Below, one piece after another: positions 53,988 through 62,282 of a DNA stretch of 64,000 bases (its first letter is position 1; each line of letters begins with the position of its first letter). The position numbers and the translations under genes are program-made. The DNA comes from Candidatus Zhuqueibacterota bacterium. GTDB taxonomy: Bacteria; Zhuqueibacterota; Zhuqueibacteria; Oceanimicrobiales; Oceanimicrobiaceae. The notes beneath the pieces are model-generated. The model did not search any database. It worked only from the letters and a program-made list of their open reading frames with translations, and was not told the DNA's origin. Where the stretch lies: the NCBI GenBank assembly GCA_029262055.1, contig JAJDAD010000071.1, positions 1-64,000 of the forward strand, in the 5' to 3' direction.

Positions 53988-55109
53988 TCATGCCTCCTGA
54001 GCATAAATTGTCGGTTTGCATCGTGGGTAGTCCAAATGACACTCGTTGAATATGTGGCACGTGCGCTTGCATATAGATACAAGCATGAGCATCAGAGGGA
54101 CTTCTATCAGCACGCCAACCACTGTAGCTAATGCTGCCCCGGACGACAAACCAAAAAGAATAACGGCAGTTGCTATGGCTACTTCAAAATGATTGGAAGC
54201 CCCTATCATAGCCGCCGGTGCAGCATCCTCGTAAGAAAGTTTTAGCCACCTCGCGAGTACAAAATAACCGATGGAAAAAATGACGACTGTTTGAATGAAA
54301 AGGGGAATGGCGATCCATAAAATAGTAAGCGGATTGCTGATGATGACTTCGCCTTTGAATGAGAAAAGCAGGACCAGGGTTAACAGTAGTGCAGTGATGC
54401 TGACAGGGGTGAGCCAATGCAGAAATCGTTCATTGAACCATTCTATGCCTTTGTATTGGATTATCCACTTCCTCGACCAATAGCCTGCAATCAGAGGCAC
54501 TGCCACATAAATTGCGACTGAAAGCAACATCGTCTGCCAGGGCACGGGCATGGAATTTACATTCAGCAATAATCCTCCCAATGGACCGTAGAGGACAAGC
54601 ATCATTAAAGAGTTGATTGCAACCATCACCAAAGTCAAACCATCGTTGCCTTTTGACAGATACCCCCACATCAGGACCATTGCCGTGCACGGTGCAATTC
54701 CCAACAAGATAGTGCCCGCGATATAACTGCGCCATAGCTCCACTTCTTCACCATTGGCAAGGATTTCCGTGCCGGGCAAGAAGTCTCTGAACAAGTAGCC
54801 CAAGAAGAAATAAGCGATTGCAAACATCGTGAATGGCTTGATAGCCCAATTTATGAAGAGAGTGAGAAAAACTGATTTCGGTGTTTTTGCTGATTTTACC
54901 ACTTGCGTGAAATCGATCTTTACCATAATCGGGTACATCATAAAAAACAGACAAACGGCAATGGGGATAGACACCTGGTAAATTGAAAAATCATTTAGAG
55001 TTGTGGCAATATCAGGAGCTACTTTTCCCAAAAGGATACCGCCGGCAATGCAAAGCAACACCCAGGCGGTCAAATACTGCTCAAAGATCGACAATTTTTT
55101 CTCAGCCAT
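53988..55109 (-). CDS. Arsenite efflux transporter ACR3
   Basis: Ten-helix inner-membrane transporter that expels As(III). The essential cysteine lies in [19 protein letters not shown], and [12 protein letters not shown] is in the conserved second half. 373 aa, normal length; the last ~20 residues ([20 protein letters not shown]) differ from typical endings and carry three cysteines. No arsR or arsC is adjacent, so its regulation is unclear. Confidence 0.93.
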
Positions 55110-58946: not shown

Positions 58947-58975
58947 TTGACATTCTCCAACTTGATTTGTATCAT
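58947..58975 (+). promoter_or_regulatory. Promoter of the Phe operon
   Basis: TTGACA (58947-58952), exactly 17 bp, then TATCAT (58970-58975). The transcript would start near 58982, 13 nt before the leader peptide ATG. Confidence 0.8.
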
Positions 58976-58994
58976 TACTGAAATACAAAAGCCT

Positions 58995-59075
58995 ATGCAG
59001 ATAATTAAGCCACAATCTTCCTTTTATTTTTCCTTCTTTTTTTTCGGTCCCCGATCCGGGGCGCGAAGGTTGTGA
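58995..59075 (+). CDS. Phe-rich leader peptide of the pheA operon
   Basis: A 26-codon ORF from ATG 58995 to TGA 59073-59075. Residues 10-17 read FYFSFFFF, six Phe and one Tyr in eight codons (59022-59045). In composition it parallels the PheL leader of E. coli. No Shine-Dalgarno is visible, but the short leader from the predicted transcript start leaves little room. Stalling at the Phe codons would place the ribosome over the first hairpin arm of the attenuator. Confidence 0.85.
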   Translation: MQIIKPQSSFYFSFFFFGPRSGARRL

Positions 59076-59137
59076 GCTAGACTACACAAATAGAGTAGAA
59101 GCCGACCCAAGCCCCGACGAAAATCGGGGCTTTTTTT
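59049..59137 (+). terminator. Ribosome-mediated transcription attenuator of pheA
   Basis: Region 1 CCCCG (59049-59053) pairs with CGGGG of region 2 (59057-59061). Region 2 as CGGGGC (59057-59062) can instead pair with GCCCCG of region 3 (59111-59116). Region 3 AGCCCCGA (59110-59117) pairs with region 4 TCGGGGCT (59124-59131), followed by seven Ts (59131-59137): a canonical terminator. The 1:2, 2:3 and 3:4 alternatives are the hallmark of attenuation. It ends 49 bases before pheA. Confidence 0.85.
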
Positions 59138-59186: not shown

Positions 59187-60032
59187 ATGCGAATCGCGAT
59201 TCAAGGTGGCCGGGCCTCTTTTCACGATATGGCCGTGCGCCGGTATTTTTGCGAACAGGAGCCGGAGCTGATCGCCTGCCGCACTTTCCGCGAGCAGTTC
59301 ACCGGCTTGCGCGCCGGCGCTGTGGACTACGTGGTGATGGCCATTGAGAACACCCTGGCCGGCAGCCTGCTGCCCAACTACAGCCTGCTGGAAGAGTTCG
59401 AGGCGCGAGTCGTAGGCGAAGTTTACCTGCACATTCAGCAGGACCTGATGGCATTGCCCGGCCAGTCACTCAGCGAAATCCGGACCGTGCGTTCGCACCC
59501 CATCGCCCTGCAGCAGTGCAGCGGCTTTATGGAGAATCATCCCCACCTGCGCAGCGTGGAAACGCACGACACCGCGGACAGTGCACGCGAGATTAGAGAA
59601 AGCGCAATCAGCGGCGCTGCGGCGATTGCCGGTAATCTTGCCGCCGAGGTTTATGAACTCGAGATCCTGGCAGCCGGAATTCAGAACATTGCCGACAACT
59701 ACACGCGCTTCTGGGTTATTTCCAGGAACGGGCAAGACGAGCAAACGCAGACCGCCAACAAGGCTTCGTTGAGCTTTCACGTCCGGCATGAGGTGGGCGC
59801 GCTGGCCAATGTGCTCGATATTTTTCGGGACAACGGCGTCAGCCTCGGACTGATTCAGTCCGTGCCGATTCCGGGCCGGCCCGATGAGTACGCCTTTCAT
59901 GTCGATGTCGAGTCTTTCGCCCGCGCGGACTTTGAGCGGGCTTTGACGAGGGTCAAGAAAATCACCAGTCATTTCCACATTTTGGGCGAATACCAATCCG
60001 GAGTGAAACCGTATGATCGTGCCAGTAGCTGA
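59187..60032 (+). CDS. pheA: Prephenate dehydratase
   Basis: Converts prephenate to phenylpyruvate. The dehydratase domain (~1-180) starts IAIQGGRASFHDMA and has the catalytic region NIADNYTRFWVI (conserved T-R-F). A C-terminal ACT domain (~195-275) has GALANVLDIFRDNGVSLG; the usual ESRP regulatory motif reads IQSVPI, as in Bacteroidota-type enzymes. 281 aa. Its end overlaps the aminotransferase start by 20 bases. Controlled by the upstream Phe attenuator. Confidence 0.95.
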   Translation: MRIAIQGGRASFHDMAVRRYFCEQEPELIACRTFREQFTGLRAGAVDYVVMAIENTLAGSLLPNYSLLEEFEARVVGEVYLHIQQDLMALPGQSLSEIRTVRSHPIALQQCSGFMENHPHLRSVETHDTADSAREIRESAISGAAAIAGNLAAEVYELEILAAGIQNIADNYTRFWVISRNGQDEQTQTANKASLSFHVRHEVGALANVLDIFRDNGVSLGLIQSVPIPGRPDEYAFHVDVESFARADFERALTRVKKITSHFHILGEYQSGVKPYDRASS

Positions 60033-61182
60033 ACGTCTCAACCGCGTCGGGGAGTATTTTTTTTCCAGAAAACTAAGAGAAGTTGCTGAACTGGGTCAGT
60101 CGGGTCCCGAGATCATCAATTTTGGCATCGGCAGTCCTGACCTGCCGCCGTCCCCGGAAGCCATCACGGCCCTGGTGCAGGCCGCACCCACTCCGAATCA
60201 TCACGGCTACCAGCCGTACCACGGCACACCCGCTTTACGGCAGGCCATGGCAAAGTGGCATAAGCAAACCTATGGAGTAGATCTCGATCCGGCGACCCAG
60301 GTTTTGCCGCTCATGGGCTCCAAAGAGGGGATCTTCCACGCTTCGCTTGCCTTCCTGAATCCCGGAGATGCGGTGCTGGTACCCGATCCCGGCTATCCCA
60401 GTTACGCGTCGGTCACCAGGCTGGTGGGGGCAGAGGCGATTCCGTACGACCTGACCGAGGAGAACAACTGGCTGCCTGACTTCGCTGCTCTCGCAGAGCG
60501 TGACTTGTCGCAGGTCAAACTTATCTGGGTCAATTATCCGCACATGCCGACCGGCGCCATGACGACGCTCACGGCGTTACGCCAGGTCGTGGATTTTGCC
60601 CTGGAACACGAGATTCTCATCTGCTACGACAATCCGTACAGCCTGGTCCTGAATCAGGAACCTCCTTTCAGTATCCTGCAAGTAGAGCGGGCTTTCGAAT
60701 GCGCCGTGGAGTTCAACTCGTTGAGCAAATCACACCACATGGCCGGTTGGCGGGTGGGCATGGCCTTGGGCCAGGAAGACCACATCAAATCGATTCTGGC
60801 GATAAAGAGCAACATGGACTCCGGCATGTTTTTACCGGTGCAGAAGGCTGCGATCGCAGCGCTGAGAAATGCTTGGTCGTGGCACGATGAGCAGAACCGG
60901 ATCTACGCCGAACGCCGCAAGAAAGTCTGCGAGTTGATGGATTTGCTCGGTTGCACCTACACCCGCGACACTCCGGGCCTGTTTGTCTGGGGCCGCACTC
61001 CTGAAAGCGTCGCGGATATCGAGAAGTTTCTCGATGAACTTCTGTATGGCGCGCGGGTCTTTTTGACGCCGGGAATTATCTTTGGCCGCAACGGCGAGCG
61101 CTACATTCGCGCATCGCTCTGCCTTTCAGTTGAACAAATAGAAATCGCGATAGAACGTATTCGTACCCACTTGAAGGATTGA
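60013..61182 (+). CDS. Class I/II aminotransferase, probably aromatic (phenylpyruvate)
   Basis: PLP enzyme of fold type I with the PLP lysine in SLSKSHHMAGWRVG, NYPHMPTGA, and a GIGSPDLPPSP N-terminal loop. It resembles LL-diaminopimelate and aspartate-type aminotransferases. Placement between prephenate dehydratase and DAHP synthase/chorismate mutase argues for transamination of phenylpyruvate to phenylalanine. 389 aa. Confidence 0.88.
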   Translation: MIVPVAERLNRVGEYFFSRKLREVAELGQSGPEIINFGIGSPDLPPSPEAITALVQAAPTPNHHGYQPYHGTPALRQAMAKWHKQTYGVDLDPATQVLPLMGSKEGIFHASLAFLNPGDAVLVPDPGYPSYASVTRLVGAEAIPYDLTEENNWLPDFAALAERDLSQVKLIWVNYPHMPTGAMTTLTALRQVVDFALEHEILICYDNPYSLVLNQEPPFSILQVERAFECAVEFNSLSKSHHMAGWRVGMALGQEDHIKSILAIKSNMDSGMFLPVQKAAIAALRNAWSWHDEQNRIYAERRKKVCELMDLLGCTYTRDTPGLFVWGRTPESVADIEKFLDELLYGARVFLTPGIIFGRNGERYIRASLCLSVEQIEIAIERIRTHLKD

Positions 61183-61184
61183 TC

Positions 61185-62282
61185 ATGGAAACCCTGAGCA
61201 TTGACATCTTCCCGCAAACCGATTTAAAGAAGAGCGGCAATAGGCCGTACGTGATTGCCGGGCCTTGCAGCGCCGAGTCGCAAGAACAGGTGCTTGCTAC
61301 TGCCCGGGCCCTCGACCAAATGACCGATGTGCAGGTATTCCGGGCGGGAGTCTGGAAGCCCAGGACACGGCCAAACACATTTGAAGGGGTAGGTGCGCCG
61401 GCGCTGAAATGGTTGCAGCAAGTGCAGCAGGAGACGCGACTGGCAGTGGCCGTTGAGGTGGCAAACGCCGCGCACGTCGAGTTGGCCCTGGAGCACGGGA
61501 TGGATGTTTTGTGGGTCGGGGCACGCACAACGGTCAATCCATTTTCAGTGCAGGATGTGGCCGATGCGTTGAAGGGAGTAGATATTCCGGTTTGGGTCAA
61601 GAATCCGGTCAACCCTGATTTGCAGTTATGGATTGGCGCGCTGGAACGCATCAGCAAAGCCGGTATTCGACGGCTGGGCGCGATTCACCGTGGCTTTACC
61701 AGCGAACAGAAGAGCGCCTACCGCAACGCACCGAAGTGGCAGGTGGCGGTCGAATTGAAACGCCTTTTACCTGAAATTCCGGTCATTTGCGATCCGAGCC
61801 ACATTGCCGGCGACGGCGGGCTGGTACGGGAGCTGGCACAGAAAGCCATGGATCTGGCCATGAGCGGATTGATGATCGAGGTGCACCCGGACCCGGCCCG
61901 GGCCATGAGTGACGCCAAGCAGCAGATCGTACCGTCGGATCTGGAGCAGCTTTTGGCCGGCCTGAAAATCCGCAAGGAAAATGGCAGGGGATATTCCGCG
62001 GATGATGAACTTGGCCGCTTGCGGCAGCGCAGCAACGCAATCGACTATGAGCTTCTGGAAACACTGGCACGGCGGATGGATGTGGTAAGAGACATCGGCC
62101 GGTACAAAAAACGCAACAACCTCACCATCCTGCAGGTGAAACGTTGGGACGAAGTTTTGCAAGACCGTTTGGAGAAAGCCGGTGAGATCGGCCTCGATCG
62201 CCATCTGGTCGAAACGATTTACCAACTGCTGCACAGCCACGCTATCAAGCTGCAGTCGGAAGTGATGAATGAAGAAGACTGA
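61185..62282 (+). CDS. Bifunctional DAHP synthase / chorismate mutase
   Basis: Fusion of the first shikimate-pathway enzyme (type I-beta, ~20-265; AGPCSAESQEQV, FRAGVWKPRTRPNTFEG, CDPSHIAGDGG) with an AroQ-type chorismate mutase (~275-360; LRQRSNAIDYELLETLARRM). ATG 61185 has AAGGA six bases upstream; the in-frame TTG 61179 is less likely. With PheA and the aminotransferase it covers entry to the pathway and the Phe branch; no tyrA follows. 365 aa. Confidence 0.95.
   Translation: METLSIDIFPQTDLKKSGNRPYVIAGPCSAESQEQVLATARALDQMTDVQVFRAGVWKPRTRPNTFEGVGAPALKWLQQVQQETRLAVAVEVANAAHVELALEHGMDVLWVGARTTVNPFSVQDVADALKGVDIPVWVKNPVNPDLQLWIGALERISKAGIRRLGAIHRGFTSEQKSAYRNAPKWQVAVELKRLLPEIPVICDPSHIAGDGGLVRELAQKAMDLAMSGLMIEVHPDPARAMSDAKQQIVPSDLEQLLAGLKIRKENGRGYSADDELGRLRQRSNAIDYELLETLARRMDVVRDIGRYKKRNNLTILQVKRWDEVLQDRLEKAGEIGLDRHLVETIYQLLHSHAIKLQSEVMNEED

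Follow-up and report, generated by a model that had tools for sequence, protein, structure and literature searches.

Known attenuators and the locus under study

Among the attenuators described so far, the pheL-pheA leader of E. coli (Rfam family RF01859, Phe_leader) is the closest counterpart of the element reported here, as both combine a Phe-rich leader peptide with alternative antiterminator and terminator structures, including a T run, directly before a prephenate dehydratase gene. The attenuator surveys of Vitreschak (2004) and Lopatovskaya (2010) reportedly include Bacteroidetes/Chlorobi. In general, ribosome-mediated attenuators are known for trp, his, leu, thr, ilv and pheA, and superattenuation denotes the formation of the 1:2 hairpin together with the terminator in untranslated RNA (PMC1183508). 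Leader-peptide attenuators have also been reported in Actinobacteria and Firmicutes (his) (PMC2965389, PMC9413887). The present locus lies in a stretch of 64,000 nucleotides, in the following called the window, whose gene set had been described as "Bacteroidota-like" in the first-pass annotation but whose host belongs to candidate division KSB1, the label of the three MAGs that are its closest public relatives. With high probability, it carries a ribosome-mediated transcription attenuator by which expression of a pheA-aminotransferase-aroG/chorismate mutase operon depends on charged Phe-tRNA (Table 1).

Table 1 Features of the Phe element and its operon, a further gene of the window, and the Trp and His attenuators found elsewhere in its genome
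Feature	Position	Strand	Details and basis
ACR3-family arsenite efflux transporter	53988-55109	-	above curated cut-off
Sigma-70-type promoter	58947..58975	+	TTGACA-17-TATCAT; as read from the sequence, -35 TTGACA 58947-58952, -10 TATCAT 58970-58975, spacer 17 nt
Leader ORF MQIIKPQSSFYFSFFFFGPRSGARRL	58995..59075	+	26 codons; start ATG 58995, stop TGA 59073-59075; 6 Phe + 1 Tyr codon within 59022-59045 (Phe: 59022-24, 28-30, 34-36, 37-39, 40-42, 43-45)
Hairpin 1:2 (CCCCG-ATC-CGGGG), protector/pause hairpin	59049..59061	+	arm 1 CCCCG 59049-53; from sequence; imperfectly kept in relatives
Antiterminator	59057..59116	+	CGGGGC 59057-62:GCCCCG 59111-16 plus capping stems GGTTG 59068-72:CGACC 59103-07, GCT 59076-78:AGC 59100-02 and CTAC 59082-85:GTAG 59095-98; from folding
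Intrinsic terminator AAGCCCCGA-CGAAAA-TCGGGGCTT + seven Ts	59109..59137	+	stem of 9 bp (59109-59117:59124-59132) at -15.3 kcal/mol; T stretch 59131-59137; shared by the six family genomes that carry the operon
pheA, prephenate dehydratase	59187..60032	+	NCBIfam PRK11898, E=3.5e-58, residues 1-271, under curated cut-off
Class I aminotransferase	60013..61182	+	many aminotransferase models, best E=3.4e-118; among models shown, none over curated cut-off; overlaps pheA
DAHP synthase with fused C-terminal chorismate mutase	61179..62282	+	profile matches: PRK08673 (DAHP synthase), residues 15-263, E=5.4e-51; chorismate mutase models at ~residues 276-362; overlaps aminotransferase
Trp attenuator, leader MKHLPANYFWRNWYWYYYTSSGKDSHSSSR	L080:1266-1358 (G000:C14)		~240 nt before trpE domain match; terminator CCCACTACATA...TATGTAGTGGG + T run
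His attenuator, leader MLLQKYTHRPHHYHHYPHLEVGLVMRAT + terminator	L056:1166-1252 (G000:C26)		before hisG

Promoter, leader and downstream operon

The promoter ahead of the leader agrees with the consensus at 11 of 12 positions and is the top promoter-like site across the 4.3 kb between 58300 and 62600; a similar TTGAC...TAT.AT-like pair is located ahead of the Phe leader in most relatives. Transcription is predicted to start near 58982, giving a 5' UTR of ~12 nt in which no clear Shine-Dalgarno sequence was found before the leader. A longer in-frame leader start further upstream was rejected, as it would fall inside the promoter. The leader ORF is rich in codons for the product amino acid of the operon, with six Phe within eight codons, a density (at least six per eight codons in a short leader ORF) that did not arise in any of 2000 sequences obtained by dinucleotide shuffling of the upstream region.

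The cognate biosynthetic genes follow directly, with the intrinsic terminator placed between the leader and the first of them. Since each gene overlaps the preceding one, pheA, the aminotransferase and the DAHP synthase/chorismate mutase very probably constitute one operon; their putative family assignments have strong E-values, yet remain under the NCBIfam curated cut-offs. The first-pass annotation had proposed a near-consensus promoter, a 26-codon Phe leader, three pairings including a terminator with seven Ts and, directly behind, a Phe operon, and all of these were recovered at the positions it had given.

Predicted folds and proposed mechanism

For folding, the RNA was treated as free from ~11 nt past the A-site codon of the ribosome, before the terminator 3' arm is transcribed. 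For each of the six Phe codons as ribosome position, the predicted fold is an antiterminator of about -22.5 to -26 kcal/mol that captures six of the nine bases of the terminator 5' arm. Once the ribosome has moved to the stop codon (59073), the predicted fold of the remaining RNA amounts to just -0.3 kcal/mol and the 2:3 pairing is lost, as had been expected from ribosome coverage of region 2. The other five family genomes are predicted to switch in the same direction (-14 to -28 vs 0 to -3.2 kcal/mol), so that in all six genomes the predicted antiterminator excludes the terminator and depends on ribosome position. In shuffled sequences, a terminator of equal stability arose in 2 of 1000 cases, and an antiterminator that was equally stable and paired arm 3 as fully in none of 1000.

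Two details of the mechanism as originally drawn needed revision. The antiterminator had been described as the helix 59057-62:59111-16, and this pairing is indeed predicted, but as the base of a larger compound hairpin and not as 6 bp alone. Masking of region 1 by the stalled ribosome had also been invoked; it is not essential, because the antiterminator is predicted even for a ribosome at the first Phe codon, a position that leaves region 1 exposed, and likewise anywhere else in the Phe run. In untranslated window RNA, hairpin 1:2 and the terminator are predicted to fold together, and it is more likely that this hairpin matters mainly when the leader is untranslated.

Transcription from the predicted start and translation of the leader would then have the following consequences. 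When charged Phe-tRNA is scarce, the ribosome would stall in the Phe run, whereupon the downstream RNA (59057-59116) could fold as the compound antiterminator, capture the 5' arm of the terminator and let the polymerase continue into pheA. A ribosome that reaches the stop codon would instead permit termination, and hairpin 1:2 would be expected to favour termination of an untranslated leader. In some relatives, charged Phe and charged Tyr are probably sensed together. Attenuation of the Phe operon, as modelled here and as first suggested for the window, is strongly supported by the comparative and folding evidence.

Conservation within one family

A close pheA (56-62% identity) is present in five of the seven other genomes of the family, and all five carry the element. 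The leader peptides read MLSNTHFRFFFFYFFGSEPGS (G002), MQKKRLYFIFFYSPGDV (G004), MKLYFYTYFAYFFFFSPLRGISDMC (G005), MKLSFCTQFLSIGFLTRPLLGP (G001) and MNFNTSFFFFGFFNGPRPGP, or two codons longer, in G007; four of them are rich in Phe/Tyr and the fifth (G001) has three scattered Phe codons. In each of these genomes a GC-rich terminator precedes pheA, and the Phe codons stay in frame while the surrounding leader sequence diverges. G003 carries a dissimilar pheA (36%) that lacks a leader, and the incomplete genome G006 yielded none.

An automatic screen of pheA loci for a short Phe/Tyr-rich ORF followed by a terminator was positive at five of the six family loci, missing G001 with its three Phe codons, which was recognised by inspection, and at none of the 39 other pheA loci of the KSB1 class. 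A covariance model of the element, R1, detected the six family genomes (E 1e-11 to 4e-17) and nothing beyond them at E<=0.01 across 82 genomes of the phylum; since these six genomes supplied the sequences for R1, it matches them by construction and its information lies in the absence elsewhere. Weak R1 matches outside the family (G038, G012, G060; E 0.02-0.1) were discarded, not being Phe leaders. The element is thus conserved in one family and restricted there to the Phe operon, accompanying a pheA-(aminotransferase)-aroG/chorismate mutase arrangement. At most other KSB1 pheA loci that were read, neither an aminotransferase nor an aroG/chorismate mutase of the window type was detectable nearby, and three had a weakly similar aroG/chorismate mutase match (28-36%) in the vicinity. 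At two loci of genus g2 (L036 and L037, from G001 and G007), no window-type aminotransferase was detected between pheA and aroG/chorismate mutase, and the leader is kept.

The alignment of relatives, which the first-pass annotation had named as a check, revealed Phe codons and the same basic layout in all six family genomes, but covariation at one pair only. Among the six sequences, a single compensatory change was seen, from A-U to G-C in the terminator stem, and the 2:3 helix showed none. Little covariation is found because the GGGGC/GCCCC core barely varies, and such near-invariance is expected where a single arm has to match two partners. Hence, covariation is not claimed as proof of the attenuator. 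G001 and G004 are weaker examples of it: G004 has three Phe codons and a non-canonical antiterminator that performs less well against shuffles. Upstream of pheA in G004 (L004), the GGGG arm is missing and AAGGTTG pairs with CAACCCTT instead; an extra AGCCCCGG at this locus could pair with the terminator 3' arm.

Alternative explanations

Intrinsic terminators are common and the leader region is T-rich, so the terminator might be constitutive or serve an upstream transcript, with the Phe-rich ORF as a by-product of a U-rich tract. This explanation is very improbable given the Phe density beyond all 2000 shuffles, the near-consensus promoter directly ahead of the leader, an antiterminator pairing beyond that of shuffles, and the recurrence of leader plus terminator in relatives together with their absence at other pheA loci. 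Terminator/antiterminator pairs as such are shared by T-boxes, riboswitches and leaders read by RNA-binding proteins, any of which might act here in place of a translating ribosome. Against such a reader, which we regard as hardly credible, stand the Phe codons held in frame amid diverging sequence and the Rfam search of the whole window, in which no family, T-box and riboswitches included, matched at its gathering threshold and Phe_leader ranked first among the sub-threshold matches to the leader.

A variant of the preferred reading, compatible with it, is a leader that responds to a general aromatic signal, Phe together with Tyr, and not to Phe alone. The leader of G005 contains four Tyr and six Phe codons and that of G004 two Tyr and three Phe, the window and G002 leaders have one Tyr codon each, and both the DAHP synthase and the aminotransferase of the operon can also serve Tyr; Phe, on the other hand, dominates in the window (6:1) and in G007 (7:0), and the first gene encodes prephenate dehydratase, which makes joint sensing a possible but rather unlikely variant. 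At the loci L004 and L005 (G004 and G005), Tyr accounts for 2/5 and 4/10 of the Phe/Tyr codons, respectively, a hint of joint sensing there.

Trp, His and other leaders in KSB1

Attenuators of similar build precede other amino acid operons of KSB1. In the window genome, to which the detailed examination of Trp and His terminators and folds was confined, both leaders are predicted to switch folds with ribosome position as in the Phe leader. A Trp leader, defined by at least two Trp per five residues with a T run behind, occurs at 21 of 30 trpE loci, and a His-rich leader with T run at 13 of 33 hisG loci, in each case in several families of the class. These attenuators resemble the Phe element in having a leader ORF with cognate codons followed by a T run, but use GTGGG/CCCAC arms where the Phe element has GGGGC/GCCCC, and are spread over the class, whereas only one family has the Phe element. 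In several KSB1 Trp leaders, Tyr alternates with Trp codons, and TGGTAT and ATACCA can pair. At trpE of G005 (L107 / L081), no Trp leader was found in the 500 nt upstream; five other family genomes differ in this respect.

In E. coli, the Phe attenuator pheM is located before pheS; inspection of six family genomes recovered no such leader upstream of pheS, nor was a leader with an amino acid run found before ilvB at the family loci. On balance, we favour the reading that leader-peptide attenuation is old and general in KSB1, and that one family either evolved a Phe (or Phe/Tyr) attenuator on its pheA-aminotransferase-aroG/chorismate mutase operon or acquired both together. By the same joint reading, the operon in this form would probably be missing from most other families of the class.

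Comparison with known systems

Measured against RF01859, the window leader aligns over its full length at 33.1 bits (G005, 42.4 bits; G007, 42.3 bits) and thus falls short of the 55-bit gathering threshold for Phe_leader, and no match of at least 55 bits was obtained among the 81 genomes searched. Phe_leader gives matches of 30-41 bits at many further sites in the phylum as well, and none of those inspected was a Phe leader; a sub-threshold score alone therefore proves little, and its use as strong independent support was dropped, weak scores of this model being unspecific in the phylum. Unlike in RF01859 systems, the window has a monofunctional dehydratase, followed by an aminotransferase and a DAHP synthase/chorismate mutase, and its host belongs to KSB1. 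In the literature covered, which was partial and mostly without subscription papers, no work joining KSB1 and attenuators was found.

The first-pass annotation had considered such a leader notable outside Proteobacteria. Its occurrence there stands, but the emphasis was overstated in view of the many Trp and His leaders in the same class and of the leader-peptide attenuators in Actinobacteria and Firmicutes, non-proteobacterial hosts with the same mechanism as the window (PMC2965389, PMC9413887). With attenuators in general, the element shares product-cognate regulatory codons, mutually exclusive II:III and III:IV pairings and a superattenuation hairpin I:II, and it differs from them in lineage and in the details of its capping stems (PMC1183508). 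In function, the Phe attenuator is a classical amino acid attenuator and not a new mechanism. A classical regulatory mechanism is extended to an uncultured phylum, with testable amino acid control for the phe, trp and his operons of organisms accessible by metagenomes only, and an attenuator that one family has and its sister families lack is informative on the frequency at which such switches evolve or move together with their operons.
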